Shown here piece after piece: positions 20,412 to 31,824 of a stretch of DNA of 64,000 nt. The notes under the pieces were generated by a model, which saw nothing but the letters and a program-made list of their open reading frames with translations, made no database searches and was not told the DNA's origin. How positions within the stretch are numbered: position 1 is the first letter of the stretch; every line of letters begins with the position of its first letter. A program made the translations under genes and the position numbers. The stretch is from Sanderia malayensis. Lineage: Eukaryota > Cnidaria > Scyphozoa > Semaeostomeae > Pelagiidae. The stretch covers positions 3,673,158 through 3,737,157 of the forward strand of contig RQOL01000024.1 in assembly GCA_013076295.1 (NCBI GenBank), given 5' to 3'.

Positions 20412-23400
20412 ATGACTGCTAATAAGGCCTCGTACAACTTGCGAGACGATGAGAGCGAAGATGATACAGTTCAAGCAAAGAAAAAACAGAAAAAGGTAAA
20501 GCCTATCTTTTGATCTCGATCTTGTTGGTTTGGTTGTATTTCAGAAGTTTGGTTTGTTATCGTTTGGTTTAATCTTTCCTAGGCTCTGATATAAGCTTGT
20601 GTTCAGTTCAGTAACTTAGTTTTTATTGCAGTTTAGGTTTGACAGAATTGTTCGTTAATGATAACCACGGCACGGAGTTATTTGAGCATTTATTTATTTG
20701 ATTTTGTGCATGCCTCGTGGTGGCGTGGTTTGAGTGTTGCATCTTTTGGATTCAAACTCATAACAAGCCATCGATGTTGTTCTCTGTTTCGTGATCATTT
20801 GATAATTTGATGATGTCGTGTTGTTTTTGTTTTGACCGACAAATGAAAACAAAGTGTTTTGTAACTACGTATTTTCATGTTGCTATTTCTTGCCACTTAT
20901 AATGAAGTGTGTCTGTGTGCAGTGCAAGTTATGCCGCCGGGATATTAAGCATTTCAGATTTGTTACCACGAAGTTTTACACCAAATTACATTGAAATTAT
21001 AACTTTTCACATTACAATTTTGAGAAGTCTAGAATGAATATATTTACACAGCTGATTATTCATTTTCTCAGATGTTTTGTGTTTGTTTTTTGCGATTCAA
21101 CGGGTTTAAATATGTATACAATACAATGGCCTATATATACGCTGGAAAAGAAAGAGCAAATTCTGATTTTTCTTTTGAACATTTATTTGACGTTGAGCTT
21201 GCTTTTTCCTGAGTTGATGGTCACCCGCAGAAAGCTCAGTTTATTCTTATTGAAATTTTCAAATGTGATTATTGGAGTTCTTACAGATAACAGTTAGGGA
21301 AAGAGAAATATCATTGTTGTCACTCTATAATATTCAATCATCCCATCCTGCCCTTCTCCGTGTGTTGTGCCCCTTAGCCTCTCCGGCTCTTTCAAATCTA
21401 CATTCTTCAATCGGAGTCGTTGTCAACCGATTGAACTCTTTAATTAGCCTCCTTGGTGGGGGAGGGGGGATAACTTCGAAAGGCATGTCACAGGGGTGCT
21501 TGTAATACCAGTTTATATTGCTACAAGAAATAATACCGCAATATTTATTTTCTATCAGAAAAACGGTACTCCGAAAATGGCACACCCGTGCCGGGGTATA
21601 TGGTTAGTTACCCCCGGGGTGAATTCATTTTTGAATAGATTGATTTGTGAAGAGATTAAAAAATCGATCAAGTCATGAAGTGCATTATGAAATGAATTGT
21701 TTTCCTTTTGTTATATTATTCACCCTGCATGAAGGAGTGTAAAAAGAAAACTTTTGTCCTTAATGAGGCTTTTATACCAGAACTGATTACCCAGACATTG
21801 TTTACATTTTTGAGTAATTTATGTTCAGAAGGATGCCGCCCGAACGTTCGTTACCAGATCTCTGCGACGTCAGGTGTTGCGGTCGAAGTTGTTCTGTGAT
21901 GCAGATTTTGCAGCTTTTACAACAAAATCATCAACAAAACAACATTATTGATAATTAACAAGATCGTTGAGATCCCCATTGCCCATTAACAAAATCACCA
22001 ATCTTAAACAAAGCGTCACGAACGCGTATGTTTATGAGTGCAGTGAGTGCGGGGTTTTAACGTGTGCTTCTTTTAATTGTCGGTCATCTCTCGAAACCTT
22101 GTATTCGTGAATGCTCCTGTTGATGACTTAGTGAACAGTGCTTGTTATGACTACACTGAAACTTGTTTCAAAGTGATCAGAATGTCCGAAATAGTGGATT
22201 TCGACTATTTGCAACTTATATTGTACTGTAAGCTGTCCCCAGCGTCCGGTAAGGTATAATTGGCGTGGTAATGAAGGTTACATTACCTGGTCATTTTCTT
22301 ACAATAAAACCTTTTTAAATAACGCAAAGTGCATTTTTAAGGCCTTTTCGAAAGCCATTGCTCTTTCTCCTACGTCAGTACTCTTTCACACTCCTTTTGC
22401 CCATGTTTTATTGAGAACATTATTTTATTTGATTTGCTTTCGACCACTATTAATCAATTTAATGAACCAATCAATTAACTAATCAAATTAACAGCTGTTG
22501 AAATTTTCGCGCGATTTTCTGCGATCACGTGCAAAACGTCGGCTATCTTTAAAACACCGAATCCGGAATCCGGAATACGGAATCCGGAATACGGAATCCG
22601 GAATACGGAATACGGAATCCGGAATCCGGAATACGGAATCCGGAATACGGAATCCGGAATACGGAATACGGAATCCGGAATACGGAATAATAATAATAAT
22701 AATAATGATTATTATCATCCAACTATATAACTATAAAGATTGTACAAAAAACTATAAAGATATAACTATATAACTATAAAGATTGTACAAAAAAAGCAAA
22801 ACTTGCAATTGCATTCCTTGCCAGCCCATGTTTAAAGGAAGGTATTGTTACGCTGCTTTTTATCACACGTGGTATGCTATTCTACCTATATGCTATATTT
22901 AGGAGTATGCTACCCCTAATACATACAGAATTCATGCCGACGGCCACAATGGAGGTGCTAGAAAGCAGAACGGTGACCGTTGTTCTGACATTGTATATGA
23001 TTTCTCTTCTCTGGAATAGTTCAGATTCAGGCAAAAATACAGGATTCTGATGATGCAATGTTTTGCAATGTCCCATTAAAATCAAATAAGTTGTTGGAGT
23101 GAAAAGAACATCAGAGAAACGAACACCACTGTTTACACTGTTTACTGTTTATCAAAACTAGAAGACAACGTTTTAAAATAACTTGTTCGAGTATATAGAT
23201 ATGATAGCTTATAACTAATTACCAATTAAACCTGCTTAACAAATTCCGAAGACTGCAATATCAATCAATGGTATATATTTTGAACAGCAACGTAGAGATA
23301 AAAAGTTATGATAATGATATTAAGCAAATGTTAATGGAAAAAACAAAATCAAACTATAACGGCAACATTGAGAATAGATTTATTCAAAAGAGGGCGGTGC

Positions 23401-26400
23401 CTTCTCCGAACGGTTGAATTGTGCCCGCCCCAGCGATTAATCTATACTGTAAGTGGCATCCATCCAAATTCGTTATAAAGGCGAAGAAGATGGGATGACC
23501 TTAAAAAACTATTGAATTCTCTTGGCACATAAAAATATGAATTGTTGAACATAGGATATCTATCTTTGATACAGCTGGCAAATAGATGAAAATGCACATT
23601 TTGAGCATGGGGTGACACCTGCTTCTGACCTGTGATCCGATCCTTGTATTCCCTGATGTCACGATAGACGACAACGAGGTCGTCTGGCTCGGCCAAAGGT
23701 GGGTTCTGTATCGCTCTTCCACAGCCATAGCATCGAGAAACAGTTGTGCCAGGAAGCCATTTAACAGTAAACATCTTCTCTCTCGTGATAGCTGATTGTG
23801 GCAACTGTAGTTGCTGAAAACAAAAATTCAAACGTTTTTTAGTGACGTTAAAGTCGGCAAAGAAGACATCGAAATGCTTTAAGATTATAGTAAGTCACCT
23901 GCTGTGGTGAAGATTGCCACTGTTGGAAATCTTGTTGAATCGGTACTGGCTTGTTCACCCAGTGCATTTGAACATCAGGCAAAGGAGGTGCACCTGGCAC
24001 CAACATGGGCATTGCTCTTGAATTCTGTGGTTGTACTTCTGGCGCTGTCACGGGAATATTTGCTGTCGGTTGTTGCAGATGTTCTATATCATCCGGAACA
24101 TCTATAAGGTCGATGAACTGTGTTGCTTCCTGTTTTTTCTTGTTACAACGTTTTCGATTGCTTGGTTTTTTTCCAGCATTTTTTGGACCACTTTGCAAAG
24201 CCATATCTATGAGGTTCCCACGTTTGTTTCTCAGTCCTCTTTTATACCAGTCAATGAACTCGTGGAGAGTACCCCGTACATGTGCAACAGCAATGGTGTG
24301 CTCGCAGATCTTTGTAGATTTGTTTGTGCATGAACGATCACAGGACAAGCTACCGCCCTTTCCAGGTGTGACAATAAAGATTTTATTTGAGTAACCCGCA
24401 ACAATATAAGATCCATTTGTTGAGCCGGGCTGTGGCACAACAAGCCCCTGTGAAGAAACTAACTTGCTGGCCTTGTCGAAAATTGTTTGCAGTATAGGCA
24501 ATGGGACATTTTCGATTCCACACCTACTTGCAGTTATCTCTAAACAGCGTGGCTCCTTCTCGACTGTTTCATCTTGGGGTGATTCTTTATCATTTGACAA
24601 CAAATCGTCTTTCTTTCCATCAACACCAGTGTCCAGAAATTTCTTAACACTGCTCTTACGTTGGTCAAGGGTCATTTTGCTCCACTTAAAGTCATTAACT
24701 ATGAGATGGCTATAACTTTGGGCAACTTTGTAAGGACCCCTTCCAAATACCGCCCTTTCTTCATTGTTAAACTGGATGCTTATGACCTTCTTCACATCTG
24801 CAATGAAATCATGGGGCGTTCTTTGATCGAAAGAAAGACCGTGTTTCACCATAAAGTTTGCAGCCTCCACATCGTTTGTTGTGTAAGTCGTTGGGGGGTC
24901 ACCAAGGCCCGCCTCGATCCGAACTTGCTTCAGCATGGATTTCTTTATGTCAGCCACCTGGGATACAAAAAGATGAATTTTGCGTTCTTAAAAACCAAAT
25001 TATATATCTTTCTTTATCTAAGTGGATGCTAATTTGGTAGTCAACAATTGATATGGCTGCAACAGCTTTATTTTGTAAAGCAATGATAACCTCAATCTTC
25101 AGGCTAGTTTTTAAAACGTACCATGAAAGATTAAAAGTGGAACATACACAGCACTTTGCAAGATGATATCTATACATTTAGTATACCATTCATACAAGAA
25201 GTTGACAAAGTAAAAAACCTTTCTTTGCATACCTTCGTAGCTTTGTTAAAAGAATTTCAGGTGCCATATACACGGGACTACCTCTGTCCATGCGAGCAAC
25301 TTTAGAGGCCAACAAAGTCTGCGTTTGAATAAGTTTTGACCTACTTTCATCAAAATCAGTCAACTTGCACACAACCGGCTTAAATCCAGACTTCCATTTT
25401 TCAAGAAAATCGCTTTCGTTATCGCAACATAGATGCTTATTACTTATCAGAATATTGGCTGGCTTTAGATCACGATGAACAATGTCCTGCTCGTGAAGGT
25501 ACCATAGTCCGTCTATGAGATCTGTCACTACAACCTCTGGAACATGCTGAAATCCTTCAAAGTCGTATGTTTATCAACGTGGGCCAAGAACTTGGAAAGC
25601 GAGCTGACGCTTGTCTGGTCACCAAAAGGAGCAAATGAAAAATAAACATACTCTTGCATAATCGAAAAAGGGTTGCAACAAACTGCCTTGAATTTTACAA
25701 TATTTACATGTCCTTTAACGCTGTTGAGAAGCTTTACTTCTTTCATTAACTCACGCTCATTTCCATCCGTTGTAAACGGTTGCTTTAAAACTACTTTCTC
25801 TGCCTTATATTCCGCCAAAACAACGGATCCAAAGCTGCCAGCTCCAATCGTTTTAATGACGGATACATCTTGCCGGTTGAACTTTTCAATACTTTCTAAT
25901 GCATCGAAAGCTTTCCGCTTTGGTTTTGGAACAGATCGCTCTGCCATCACACAACTAAACAGGCACAACTGAGCAACTGAACTGACGAAAACAAATGCAA
26001 ATGCTAGTTAATGTTTCATTAACTTCAGTTAATTATTGACGTATATCATAGCTTGGCGTTACCAACCAAATATTACTTAACACATCCCTCATAAGATGAT
26101 ATTTGAAATGTGCTAACTTATTGGGGATCCAACTGAGCCACCGACTAGGGGATTACGAAGATGACAAACAACCTATGCTTAATATCAAGTGCTGACCAGA
26201 CATCCAAAATGTATTAGCCAATCAATGCCAAGTTTTTTAAAAAGCTGACTCTGGCTAACCAATCAAACAATCGCTAAAAACAATCGCCATGTTTTTCTAC
26301 TGCGCCCCACGGATACATGATTATGAATGCAACAAAGCTTATCAAGAACTCTCTGCTTTTATCTCGTGGGTAGGAGTAAAGAATTAAAGAAAGATCTGAA

Positions 26401-29400
26401 GTGATGTTTGCAATTTGAAAACTTAATAAGCTTCATCCGTATCCATAAATAAAAATATTTGTTTCCACAGCCACAAAATAACTGCAAAAGCTGAACTGAC
26501 AGTTGTTCATCTGCGGTAATGACATTTCTTGGTGAATAATTTTAACGCTATTTTAATATAGAGGTGAAAGGTGAACATCCAGCAGCTTAACAATAGCTTC
26601 CTTTACGCAAAGGCTGGCGAGGAATGCAATTGCAAGTTTTGCTTTTTTTGTACAATCTTTATAGTTATGTTCAATAGTTGGATGATAATAATCATTATTA
26701 TTATTATTATTCCGTATTCCGTATTCCGGATTCCGTATTCCGGATTCCGGATTCCGGATTCCGTATTCCGGATTCCGTATTCCGGATTCCGTATTCCGGA
26801 TTCCGTATTCCGGATTCCGGATTCCGTATTCCGGATTCCGTATTCCGGATTCCGGATTCCGGATTCGGTGTTTTCAAGATAGCCCAAAACGTCAAATATT
26901 TGATTCGTCATCGTATTTTTTTTTGCCAGGGTGAAGTTGTGGCGATAGAGCTTGGCGAAATCGAAGCCCAAACTGATAAAGAAAACTCTGAAATACAAAC
27001 GAAGGAAAATGGCTTGTCGTCTGAAGATCAACAACATCATGAAGACGAAGATCCAGATGATTACCCATCGCAAGGCATTTGTGCACCGCTGGATAAAGTC
27101 CTCACCTTCATTGAAACTATTTTCAAGACGTTCTATTTCAAAAATTCGTCACTTGTGAAAATGGTGGCTGGTGGAATCCTTTGTGGTGGTTACGTTGCAT
27201 ATTTTCTTGTTGCATGTTGGAAGGATTTTAAAAGGGCTCGCGACCTGTTTGCTGTTACTATGTTTGCATTGTTCTGCTTTCTTTATTGGCTGGTAAAGAA
27301 ATTTTTCGGAGAGAAGATCGACAAATATGTTATCACTCCAGTTGTAAAGGCTATCAAGTCAAAATGGAAGTTTGTTAAGTGGTAAGCCAAAAATAAAATT
27401 ATCGAGGGATATAACTATATTTCTTTTTTGCTTTCTGGTCAGTAATAAACAGCTCCACTTTTTCTTGTTAAAAGACAGATCTGTGTCAGATTTTTAAGGC
27501 CCTCTGGCAAAAATTGCAAAAATTTATAGATGGCTTCTTTAGTGAATCTTAGTTTCTCGGGAATAAGTGATGAGTATTTAAAAAATGAAGAAAGCTTTAA
27601 GGACCTGTGGGAATCCCTCCCTTTTGTCCCTCCCTCTCCTTCCCCAACATTATTGCTCACAGAGTTTGTTATTTTCTCATATCGTAACTTTGTCCTTTAA
27701 CTATACTGATTTTTAATTACAGGGGTTGCATATTAGTTGTTTTTATACTGCTCATTTTGTGGATTGCTTTGGACACAGCTAAGAACCCGAAACGACTAAT
27801 TTCACTTGCTGGCTTGGTCATCTATGTTCTATTGGCCTACATATTCTCAAAGAACCGCAAAAGGGTAATTATTGCTCTGTATATCTTCAATTATAAACTA
27901 CAAATTCAAAATGAGCGGGAACTTAACATACATCCAATATATTTCACAAATTCTTCGCCATGCTTACTCTCGACTTAACAAACCAACCACTGACCATCCT
28001 GCTACCAGGTTTTGGCGAAACCGCTTCGCTTCATTAACAACTGTATCTGCAAGACTACAATTCTAATGTAGCTAATGTGTATGGGTTGCTTTGTAGGTTG
28101 TTTGGAGACCGGTACTATGGGGTCTGGCTTTACAGTTTGTCTTTGGCATACTTATTCTGCGAACCACGGCTGGAAGGCAGTTCTTCAAATGGCTCGGTGA
28201 CAGAGTGTCAATATTTCTAGCCTTCTCTGATACTGGAGCACAGTTTTTATTCGGGAAAACTACGTATACTGCGCATTTCTTCGCATTCAAGGTATGTTCT
28301 AATGGCGCTCTTCACCAATTTAGTGCTATTTTAGTTTGGCATCTAAATACCTCATTCAAGCGGTTCATCGTTAGGCAATGGATCAGTATAATGATGACAT
28401 CACATTTCTCATCCCCTTCTTTATTAATTTTTTACTTTTAGTGTTGTCTTGTTTGTTTTTCTGAATTTATTTTCATCCTATTGTCTTTTGCATGCTTTTT
28501 ATTTTTGTTTATGTTTACGATTGTTTGTTTTTTTGTTTTTTTGTTTATCCTTGTTATGTCTGCTTGTGTTTGTTAAATTTAGTTTATTACATGCCTACAA
28601 TAATGTTTAGGCCGTTACACCTGCAACGTGATTAAGATTGTTGTTATTTACTCCTTTCACAGGTTTTGCCAGTTGTTGTTTTCTTCAGTGCATTTGTTTA
28701 CATGGTTTACTATCTCGGCATCATGCAAGTTGTCATTAAAAAAATCGCATGGGTCATGCAAGTTACCATGGGTACATCTGCTGCCGAATCTCTCAACGCT
28801 GCTGGAAATATTTTCATTGGTCAGGTATGAATGCATTGCGAGTTCCGCAAGCAGTAGCTATTCACTAAGTAGCCTTTTAGCTGCAGCCTTTAGTTATTTT
28901 TAGTGCAATTGTATAGAATTATACACAGTTGAATCTATTTCGTACGATTTTTGCACGATTGTCGTACGAGTTCTGTCGTACGGTTGTCGTACAACTAAAA
29001 TATGCGTTTCTGTTTTCTGGCGTATGCTTGTTTCCTTTCCGCAACCAAATGTCTTTGCTACAAACTAATTTCTCACTCCCAACAGACTTTGTACGACAAT
29101 GATTTCACTGAATGCAACTTTTATACGCAGTTTTATTCCATCATAGTTTTATACCTAGTTGTGTAAATGTTTTATGTAGTATGGTCATTGGTCTCATATG
29201 GTTAATTGCTTCAAAGAGTTTTTCGTTGTAAATGCTCGAATTAATTTTCACAAAATACCATCCATTATTACTCATTAGGTTTTTTATCCATTTTCAGACT
29301 GAAGCGCCGCTATTAATTCGTCCATTTCTACCCGACCTGACAAAATCGGAGATTCATGCGGTGATGACGGGAGGATTTGCAACAATAGCCGGCAGTGTCC

Positions 29401-31824
29401 TGGGTGCTTACATTCTGATCGGTGTATCCGCCTCGCATCTTCTCTCTGCATCGGTTATGTCTGCGCCTGCCGCCTTGGCCATCTCGAAATTGATGTACCC
29501 CGAAACAACGACGCCTAAAACCAAGAAGGTCTCCGACATCCACATCGAAAAAGGGTACGTCACATATCTCCCTTTTCTATCTACTACATCTCCACGTCAT
29601 CTACTACGTACGTACGTCCCCATATCTCCCTTTTCTATCTAGCTACTAACACAAATAGATATTAAAGAGAGAGAGATTATGTGATAAGATGCTATTTATT
29701 TTGTAATAGAAATGAGAAGAACTTTCTAGAAGCTTTGGCTAGATTATGTGATAAGATGCTATTTATTTCGTAATAGAAATGAGAAGAACTTTCTAGAAGC
29801 TTTGGCTAGATTATGTGATAAGATGCTATTTATTTCGTAATAGAAATGAGAAGAACTTTCTAGAAGCTTTGGCTAGATTATGTGATAAGATGCTATTTAT
29901 TTCGTAATAGAAATGAGAAGAACTTTCTAGAAGCTTTGGCTGCTGGTGCATCAATGTCGATTGCATTGGTAGCAAACATATCAGTGATGTTGATTGCTTT
30001 CTTGTCCGTTCTGGCATTCTTAGATGCCATTCTCTGTTGGCTTGGCAGCATGGTTGGTTATTGCATATCATTTGAGGTACGTTCAGAGAATTTCCATTGC
30101 ATCATTTCAGATATTGTGCACTCTATAACGTCTTGGTTATACAGTGCACACTTTTTGGCATTAAACTTGTGAAAGTCCTTGGTTTTATCGTTATCACAAG
30201 CAGTTATGTTTGGCCAGCGTGTTGGGTTCCTTGTGTAAAGGTCTTCAGGAAATATCATGACTGATTATAATAGTGTCAGGACTTTTTGAATGGAGATAAC
30301 TGTGGGCTAATAGTGACATCGAAAGGTTCTTGTATTATTATTTTTACGCGCAGATATTCATCTGTAATATGCATCCTTTGTGGAGAGCTGTAGGAGTATC
30401 ATAAAATGAGGAGGAATACTTTGATTGTTTTTCCTTTCAAATCAAATCTTGATTAACTGAGTGATGAGGCTTATATTGAGATTGTTTTTTCTGTTTGATT
30501 GTTTATTTAGAATAGAAGCAAGAAAGTAGACTAGTTCTCTGTTACTCGGAGTTTCATGCTTTCCCAATCATCAGACAGACTATAATGAAATACATCCCGA
30601 TTTGTTACTTATATTGTTTGTTTATTTGTTATTTATATTGATTTTTTATTAATTTATCTTTTAGTGGATATGTTCGTATGTTTTGATGCCATTTGCGTAC
30701 ATCATGGGTGTGTCTTGGAAAGATTCGTTTGAAGTTGCCAAACTTCTTGGATTGAAAACGTTTCTCAACGAATTCGTTGCTTACGAGTCCTTGGCCAAAC
30801 TGATCAAGAATAGAAGACAAAACCTGGCTGGAACTCAACTTGAGGTCAGTAACGTGTTTGCGTGTAGTTCCTATTGTTTTTGATGATGTATGCGTGGAGC
30901 ATGCGTGTACTGAATGACTCCAAAGCCAGGGCTCAATGTTTGTAACATGCCTCAGAAGCTTCTCAGTTAGAGCTTAGTCTGTTTAGCTCGAAATCTTTTC
31001 TGCATCATGAAATTTTTCAAATTACAAATCGTTGTTTAAGGGTTGGGTAACCTTTAAAAGAGACCATAAAATTTCATTCGATTTATAGTAAGCTCTAAAC
31101 TACACATTATTCATACACATTTGCTACATACGCATTAGCTATATCAGATTTGAATTAGAAATTTGCTGGTTTATAAGTTATTTATAGTGTTTAAGAAATC
31201 GTTTTTGTTTTCACTAGCTTCGCTCGGAAACAGTTGCAACTTATGCCCTCTGCGGTTTTGCAAATATTGGTTCTATCGGTGTACAAATTGGTGGCCTAAG
31301 TGCCTTGGCTCCGAAACGAAGATCCGATTTAGCGAGTGTTGCATTCCGTGCACTGCTTGCAGGAACTATTGCATGTTTCATGACTGCATGCATTGCTGGT
31401 ATGATTATTTGCTTTTTAACTTGCACATAATTATTATTGCTAATATGCTATGGAGGTGAAGTGTGCTAAGATGCAGTGAAATTTCAATTTGTAACGAACC
31501 AAAGCATACTTTATTACATCCAGAATTTGTTAAATTGATAATAATTTATTTGTTTTGGAGGGCAATTAAAAGAAGAACTAAATTTCAATGTTATTATATT
31601 GAGAAGTCTATCTTATCAGTGGGACTTGTTATAAACTGAGATTTCACTTTATATATTTTAACAAAGCGTCGAAGTTTATAACTTTTTCCTTTAATTCTTA
31701 TTATCTAACTAGAACCATGAATATATATTTTTAGAAGCAATGTTTATTAATAATAACGATGTCATTAATCCTAGGTATATTATATGAAGATGGTTTTGAC
31801 GACAGTAGAATTCCAGTGGTCTAA
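20412..31824 (+). CDS. SLC28: Concentrative nucleoside transporter (SLC28/CNT family)
   Basis: Plasma-membrane Na+- or H+-coupled importer of nucleosides. Ten exons join in phase to 622 residues: 20412-20495, 26930-27381, 27723-27864, 28097-28291, 28663-28824, 29298-29554, 29911-30076, 30665-30844, 31218-31398, 31775-31824. The N-terminus is acidic and cytoplasmic. Multiple hydrophobic helices follow from exon 2 onward. Exon 6 carries [12 protein letters not shown] and the [12 protein letters not shown] block of the transport core. Exon 8 carries the CNT signature [13 protein letters not shown], and exon 9 carries [10 protein letters not shown]. It is somewhat shorter than human CNT3 (691), with a short C-terminal tail. 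Intron 1 (about 6.4 kb) contains a Mutator-like element. The acceptor of exon 29911-30076 lies in a 67-bp tandem array. A possible AATAAA lies at 32268. Which SLC28 member it matches best is not resolved. Confidence 0.95.
22541..22856 (+). repeat. Left terminal inverted repeat of the Mutator-like element
   Basis: It contains the 28-base leading block (22541-22568), the heptamer array to about 22688, (TAA)n to about 22708, and a unique inner block containing acttgcaattgcattcc. The whole matches the reverse complement of 26581-26884, with one substitution in the outer block and array-length differences. A second partial copy of the actataaagattgtacaaa block is present only in this left repeat. 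Confidence 0.9.
22857..23441. other. Non-coding interior of the Mutator-like element, 3' of its gene
   Basis: AT-rich sequence between the left inverted repeat and the stop codon of the SWIM gene. No motif or exon was recognised. Confidence 0.6.
23442..24957 (-). CDS. SWIM zinc-finger protein of the Mutator-like element
   Basis: Two exons read in phase: 24957 down to 23899 (353 codons, after an acceptor) and 23813 down to 23442, with an 85-base GT-AG intron. The first exon holds a region resembling the part of MULE-type proteins that follows the catalytic core ([20 protein letters not shown] and on). It then has a SWIM-like CxxxC...CxH zinc motif ([16 protein letters not shown]), a basic block ([10 protein letters not shown]) and a Pro/Gln-rich stretch. 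The second exon has CYGCGRAI and an HFHLFASC motif, possibly another metal-binding unit, and ends in FGWMPLTV. Its upstream partner is the kinase fragment; the simplest splice between them is out of frame, so the full transcript structure is unresolved. DNA binding is inferred from SWIM domains in MULE transposases. Confidence 0.72.
25188..25947 (-). pseudogene. Protein-kinase domain fragment carried by the Mutator-like element (frameshifted, C-lobe incomplete)
   Basis: Starts at ATG 25945-25947 (MAERS). Visible kinase motifs in order: glycine loop [12 protein letters not shown] lysine, a helix-C glutamate in [17 protein letters not shown] catalytic loop, a TDFDES activation segment start (DFG changed to DFD), and APE. 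The frame shifts by one base near 25566; the second half continues in another frame from EGFQHVPEV. The catalytic-loop Asp and Lys are kept. After APE the sequence runs into a GTATGC donor-like site at 25232 and no further kinase C-lobe was found before the SWIM part at 24957. The frameshift may be a sequencing or assembly error; the missing C-lobe cannot be explained that way. It resembles serine/threonine or TKL-like kinases; the closest family is unknown. Confidence 0.75.
25948..26580. other. Non-coding interior of the Mutator-like element, 5' of its gene
   Basis: AT-rich sequence between the kinase start codon and the right inverted repeat, presumably containing the element's promoter. 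No TATA-like element could be singled out. Confidence 0.5.
26581..26884 (-). repeat. Right terminal inverted repeat of the Mutator-like element
   Basis: Mirror of 22541-22856. The heptamer array here (about 26706-26867) is longer than on the left (about 130 bases), so the two arms have diverged by gain or loss of heptamers while unique blocks remain nearly identical. SLC28 exon 2 starts only 45 bases beyond the end of this arm. Confidence 0.9.
29644..29941 (+). repeat. 67-bp tandem array duplicating an SLC28 splice acceptor
   Basis: Four copies of a 67-base unit precede exon 7. Each contains the intron end ttcgtaatag (first copy tttgtaatag) and the first 31 bases of the exon (aaatgagaagaactttctag onward). 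Acceptors end at 29709, 29776, 29843 and 29910. Only the last is followed by the full exon. Because 67 is not a multiple of three, use of an earlier acceptor would shift the frame. Confidence 0.92.

Follow-up and report, generated by a model that had tools for sequence, protein, structure and literature searches.

In the 64,000-nucleotide window from the scyphozoan Sanderia malayensis, an element bounded by terminal inverted repeats (TIRs) lies at 22541-26884. It is very probably an internal-deletion derivative of a clade of Mutator-like elements (MULEs) whose full-length members would encode a eukaryotic-type protein kinase, a herpes-tegument-like deubiquitinase (VTD), a DDE transposase and a SWIM-like C-terminus. 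In the longer relatives these modules stand on one strand in the order kinase, VTD-like domain, MULE DDE and SWIM-like region, encoded apparently in one gene. The window copy itself is a non-autonomous, decayed derivative. The anatomy of the copies shows integration in the MULE fashion, with target duplications of 9-10 bp.

Origin and decay of the window copy

The structure of the window copy is explained by its alignment with longer copies in the same genome. Its sequence through base 25237 matches the kinase half of the copy on C859 (90%), and the match with the copy on C742 (87%) stops 30 bases before that position. The sequence starting at 25236 matches C613 (98%), C616 (95%) and C859 (89%), and in these three the end of the DDE core lies directly upstream of the matching segment. 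C859, C742, C613 and C616 each continue differently beyond the junction. The alignments indicate that the window copy arose by an internal deletion at 25236/25237, which fused two ends and took out the kinase C-lobe, the VTD and both catalytic aspartates of the transposase. A mirror case exists at C613:4601458-4606364, where the DDE and SWIM parts are retained and no kinase was found. Because of the junction alignments and this mirror copy, a kinase plus SWIM layout lacking the DDE core is taken as a deletion product and not as a new layout. The sequence-only reading had noted that no DDE core was to be seen, and the first two aspartates are indeed absent; the exon with the last acid remains. 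Its further proposal, that the kinase had taken the place of the core, is ruled out by the junction and by the full-length relatives, which have both, the kinase first. The features of the window copy are as follows (L069 is an 8.2-kb relative on C155).

22532-22540, no strand: left target site duplication CAAAACGTC, 9 bp
22541-26884: element bounded by TIRs, first bases GGCTATCTT, last bases AAGATAGCC
22541-22860, plus strand: left TIR, a tandem array and a non-array arm
22553-22690: tandem array in the left TIR, CCGGAATACGGAAT-type units
22770-22857: non-array arm of the left TIR
23439-23813, minus strand: last exon of the MULE gene, with C-terminal CxGC region and stop; acceptor placed by eye; matches the last exon of L069
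23899-24957, minus strand: SWIM-like exon, an open frame with TTNxxExxN and C-x3-C...C-x-H; donor placed by eye
24958-25232, minus strand: intron inherited with the parent's DDE half, having GT at 25232 and AG before 24957
25233-25570, minus strand: middle part of the kinase; APE present, DFG in intact relatives, C-lobe missing
25236-25237, no strand: internal deletion junction, where the kinase half of the parent meets the end of the DDE part
25571-25947, minus strand: kinase N-lobe from the ATG, with the VVLKQ lysine; frameshift to the middle part near 25570
26581-26884, minus strand: right TIR
26885-26893, no strand: right target site duplication, 9 bp, exact copy of CAAAACGTC

An antisense gene with a kinase followed by a SWIM-type protein had been proposed inside the element. 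Its parts are there. The two kinase pieces match Pfam PK_Tyr_Ser-Thr (8.3e-9) and Pkinase (7.5e-15), and the SWIM-like motif is present in a 379-aa open frame. Its structure needs refining. The frame of the kinase is broken near 25570 and its DFG reads DFD, so that with the C-lobe also lost it is not an intact kinase. The SWIM-like region is a separate exon, and when it is joined to the kinase through the parental splice sites, the frame is lost and a stop follows within a few codons. No match of the window protein to Pfam SWIM was obtained up to E 10, and the label SWIM-like rests on the C-x3-C...C-x-H motif, of which C-x-H is found in 6/6 and C-x3-C in 4/6 of the aligned relatives. This exon is 98% identical to an exon of the C613 element copy. 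No active kinase, VTD or transposase is expected from the window copy, which, if it was ever mobile, would have moved on enzymes from its relatives.

The exact 9-base duplication noted around a 4.34-kb unit with inverted ends was borne out. The array-bearing arms (22541-22689/26736-26884) are 93% complementary, consisting mostly of tandem array, and the non-array arms (22770-22857/26581-26668) are 92% complementary. The tandem arrays look different in the TIRs of each subfamily, with GGAATACGGAATCC-, AATCTGTAAAAGGGGG- and GGGGAACCGTC-type units (22553-22690; L069:395-740; L151:470-610). The terminal GGCTA is common to the subfamilies despite the differing arrays.

The 184-Mb genome containing the window was searched for further copies. 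With 40 of 116 candidates scored, the left 320 bp of the element matched at least 45 places, two of which are the ends of the window copy. Seven copies had both outer ends readable, partly recognised by the common terminal motif: the window copy, C464:3353387-3355875, C613:490971-492509, C821:24830-26486, C155:66901-75131, C103:99951-108456 and C613:4601458-4606364. All seven start with GGCTA and end with TAGCC, an agreement partly built in since the ends were sought by that motif. A further copy, C402:68361, was readable at its left end only. Other copies with duplications of 9-11 bases had been expected, and 9-10 bp duplications at differing sites flank 7/7 copies, one of them requiring a 1-nt offset. 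As a control, mismatched flanks shared at least 8 bp in 0/42 pairings. Since each copy has its own 9-10 bp duplication at a different site, the seven are regarded as separate transpositions. A single-copy host gene is ruled out by 87 SWIM-part and 51 kinase matches in the genome. The copy at C464:3353387-3355875 (L003/L005) is non-autonomous and 2.5 kb long, is flanked by a duplication of its own, TCCTTTTTG, and lies about 1 kb past the last exon of the kinase-MULE copy on C464. In the C859 copy, an antisense 356-aa frame (L070:4088-5155) separates the left TIR from the kinase; its motifs are reverse-transcriptase-like, and we take it to be probably a nested element.

The insertion had been placed in intron 1 of an SLC28 gene. 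The element does lie upstream of SLC28-type exons, with Pfam Nucleos_tra2_N/C matches at 28097-31427. The placement in intron 1 found no support: no transporter was matched by the nearest downstream frame, an exon read by eye from 26930. This open frame follows a T-rich AG acceptor-like site, seen 36 bp past the right duplication.

Full-length relatives and their domains

Two full-length members, of 8.2 and 8.5 kb, were seen whole. L069, the shorter one, has TIRs that are up to 99% complementary. Its first coding exon holds a complete kinase and the second domain, and is followed by the MULE N-terminus, the DDE core and the SWIM-like exons. With introns placed by eye to preserve the frame, nine exons and eight GT-AG introns give 1631 aa without a stop. 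The same fusion occurs in two EukProt gene models, P0117 (1670 aa) and P0118 (1510 aa), and a third, P0200 (926 aa), joins the kinase to part of the MULE. The C103 subfamily is 36-46% identical to P0117 across its parts and has the same order of pieces, with TIRs and a 9-bp duplication of its own, as read from pieces and not from a full gene model.

Two aspartates, the C-x2-H motif and the glutamate of TTNxxExxN are invariant across the six aligned MULE halves. We take this glutamate as the third catalytic acid. At E<=0.1, Pfam MULE matched 3/6 of these rows (best 6e-4) and Transposase_mut 2/6 (best 3e-5); P0120 scored 23.5 bits for Transposase_mut against a cut-off of 21. When a profile was built from the MULE half, it matched none of the solved structures at E<=1. 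The parent clade has the marks of MULEs, namely 9-10 bp duplications, TIRs and a DDE core with C-x2-H.

The kinase of L069 matches Pkinase at 1e-30. Its AlphaFold model has a pLDDT of 89 and finds PDB kinases at E about 1e-12. In the full-length relatives the catalytic lysine, HRD, DFG and APE are present together with both lobes, and C481, C464, C155 and C103 retain intact Lys, HRD, DFG and APE/SPE; the C303 kinase is readable only in part. For six pairs within subfamilies, the ratio of nonsynonymous to synonymous substitution (dN/dS) of the kinase lies in the range 0.36-0.63; a seventh, near-identical pair gives 1.10. The window copy compared with C481 has a dN of 0.24 and a saturated dS. 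Selection seems to preserve the kinase in the active lineages, beside which many copies are dead. The middle domain is predicted to be a VTD. Its model (pLDDT 94) has a papain-like VTD fold, and it carries the Asp-x-His and the catalytic cysteine by which the domain is defined in the available parts of PMC9741609.

Linkage of the kinase-VTD module to the transposon

In 22/44 merged kinase loci a SWIM-part match lies within 15 kb downstream on the same strand, where 0.0023 would be expected at each by chance; in 0/44 does it lie upstream or on the opposite strand. The 22 unlinked loci comprise 12 weak ones (E 1e-9 to 7e-4), which are probably ordinary cellular kinases, and 10 strong ones. Three of the latter have other MULE pieces (C686, C675:201540 and C440), and in C440 the DDE and C-terminal pieces come after an inserted foreign frame. 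This insertion, an antisense frame of 565 aa (L154:3168-4862) that interrupts the kinase-VTD/DDE copy, presumably resembles a hAT transposase.

The converse search started from the DDE part. A kinase or VTD lies upstream at 18/28 loci that are at least 50% identical to the query vs 1/50 below 50%, a threshold chosen after the list was seen, and p<=4e-8 is also obtained with thresholds of 45% and 55%. Kinase matches alone give 17/28 vs 1/50, and the 28 strong kinase loci alone 14/28 vs 0/50 (p<=4e-8 each). The main counts draw on all 44 kinase loci and stay the same when 12 weak ones are left out. Because of this difference between close and distant DDE loci, the kinase/VTD appears to be a lasting trait of one MULE clade. 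The distances of kinase and SWIM parts are correlated with r 0.93 (Mantel p 0.0002; the 12/22 linked loci with both parts fetched), chiefly because close groups coincide. Among 12 elements compared, the kinase occupies the same place across subfamilies with a kinase identity of 31-62%. As far as sequence comparison reaches, the linkage and the shared subfamilies show the kinase-VTD module to be an old, inherited part of the clade. A Mutator-like element carrying a kinase was rightly recognised in the window: it is a MULE, it is multicopy, and the kinase goes with a MULE C-terminal half. A fresh capture, which had been offered as one possibility, does not agree with the constant place of such divergent kinases.

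Relatives of both halves occur outside this genome. The kinase-VTD exon matched 86 database proteins at E<1e-40, the next match being at 6e-6 (best 7993 candidates scored). Among the species from which they come are Holothuria leucospilota, Dendronephthya gigantea, Clytia hemisphaerica, Lineus longissimus, Paramuricea clavata, Acropora cervicornis and Desmophyllum pertusum. A search with the MULE half gave 92 matches, including Dendronephthya gigantea (44-48% identity), Paramuricea and Mytilus trossulus. A viral origin was considered and rejected: the kinase-VTD alignment found 92 relatives in viral contigs, of which the best 80 have 21-34% identity. In a library of viral protein structures, the named ones among the 50 listed of 679 matches are kinases.

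Alternatives, known systems and possible function

Several observations weigh against a four-module gene inherited with the transposon. The ATG of P0117 is not in frame with the start of L069, which may therefore not be intact. P0117 reads through one intron and may be an ab initio prediction, which is no proof of a transcript. It is 89-97% identical to L069 by long exon pieces, and probably comes from the same or a sister species. The DDE of L069 is weak (Pfam MULE E 0.059), and the P0117 row has no MULE or Transposase_mut match at E<=0.1. A changed motif or a stop is found in the kinases of the window, C778, C780, C859, C569, C836 and C45, and the dN/dS values are only moderately below 1. 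No kinase match was found at 10/28 close DDE loci. Among six deep representatives (15 pairs) the kinase/SWIM correlation falls to r 0.37, and ancient swaps are possible. Finally, no MULE part was found at 7/28 strong kinase loci (E<1e-13), namely C410, C675:5351812, C289, C587, C591, C632 and C866, which could be host genes. At C289, no MULE match at E<=0.01 was found within about 6 kb downstream. C289:263500-272000 (L153) and C675:5351812 have equal 544-aa kinase-VTD frames with equal scores, and these two loci are either broken copies or a free-standing kinase-VTD gene.

In the Pack-MULEs of plants, MULE ends surround passenger fragments of host genes. The present elements likewise have MULE ends around coding sequence, which here appears to be a conserved module of the element rather than a passenger fragment. 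In favour of a like capture of fragments of a cellular kinase, plant MULEs are known to bear pieces of host genes (PMC1947982, available parts), the window copy on its own resembles a Pack-MULE, and the seven strong loci just named may not be transposon copies. Such a capture is nevertheless highly improbable for this clade. The kinase keeps its order and strand in 22 loci and in subfamilies with 31-62% kinase identity, several of which retain its catalytic motifs, and in L069 it is continuous in frame with the transposase. Cellular kinases are distant, with genome matches dropping from 5e-14 to 1e-9 and beyond and protein-database matches from 6e-41 to 6e-6 (best 7993 candidates). It is barely conceivable that the kinase-SWIM fusion in the window has newly become a working gene of the host, either domesticated or regulatory. 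The open 379-aa frame would suit it, but the frameshift, the change of DFG to DFD, the lost C-lobe and the out-of-frame fusion speak against it, as does the 98%-identical exon in another element copy.

The kinase-VTD and MULE parts might instead be two separate genes or transcripts of one transposon rather than a polyprotein. Some MULEs carry a second gene (PMC6446971, available parts), and many database relatives of the kinase stop soon after the VTD, near 600 aa, which fits separate proteins and also single-exon predictions. We consider this arrangement unlikely, since L069 has one open frame across nine exons with canonical splice sites and both P0117 and P0118 fuse the kinase-VTD with the MULE. 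The deletion-derivative reading is retained for the window copy, with the four modules apparently in one gene in its parents.

The clade agrees with the Mutator-like elements surveyed by Dupeyron et al. 2019 (PMC6446971) in its 9-10 bp duplications, TIRs, DDE with C-x2-H and SWIM-like C-terminus, and differs from them, as far as the accessible parts go, in its N-terminal kinase and VTD. The word kinase has no occurrence in the main text of that survey; the extra domains tabulated there include FAR1, PHD finger, SET and PMD, and an ovarian-tumour domain in MuDR-6_HM. According to the available parts of PMC9741609, VTD deubiquitinases occur in rolling-circle Helitrons, herpesviruses and domesticated genes. 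Cnidarian VTD genes are described there as joined to 'several transposon-associated domains', the transposon being unnamed in those passages, and neither 'kinase' nor 'Mutator' occurs in the main text. In contrast to that Helitron setting, the predicted VTD here sits in a MULE together with a kinase. TRADD-N fusions to Mutator/Mule (PMC8195603, available parts) are alike in placing a signalling domain on a MULE, although an adaptor is fused there and a kinase here. No description of a kinase-encoding MULE was found in the literature searched, whose scope excluded Repbase and most subscription papers. MULEs and VTD-bearing Helitrons are thus known, no description of the kinase-VTD-MULE combination was found, and the window copy is an ordinary deletion derivative.

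For the mechanism, the transposase would cut at the TIRs and the kinase-VTD module may assist transposition. The VTD could remove ubiquitin from the transposase or its partners, which would then escape degradation, and the kinase could phosphorylate the transposase or host factors of chromatin, repair or silencing. We propose tentatively, trusting it slightly less than we doubt it, an animal-wide MULE clade in which an active kinase and a herpes-tegument-like deubiquitinase are fused to the transposase and would add phosphate to, and strip ubiquitin from, either this transposase or host control proteins, making it a transposon equipped with signalling enzymes. That both enzymes instead act against host defence, such as silencing or ubiquitin-based restriction, and not in transposition chemistry, is a real possibility by analogy, which we lean against. 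Herpesviral tegument deubiquitinases often target the ubiquitin-mediated degradation of signalling components (PMC9741609, available parts). The same source suggests that transposon VTDs protect transposition proteins or overcome a male-germline limit on transposon inheritance.

In the usual view, post-translational control of DNA transposons depends on enzymes of the host. A MULE clade with conserved catalytic kinase motifs and a deubiquitinase-like domain, both in frame with the transposase, would permit a direct test of whether phosphorylation and deubiquitination serve a transposon to regulate its transposase or to disable silencing by the host. The spread of VTD enzymes through transposons has been proposed from Helitrons, and the present elements would add a MULE setting. 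The results also suggest that transposon genes may stand behind some coral, sea cucumber and worm gene models annotated as 'serine/threonine kinase'.

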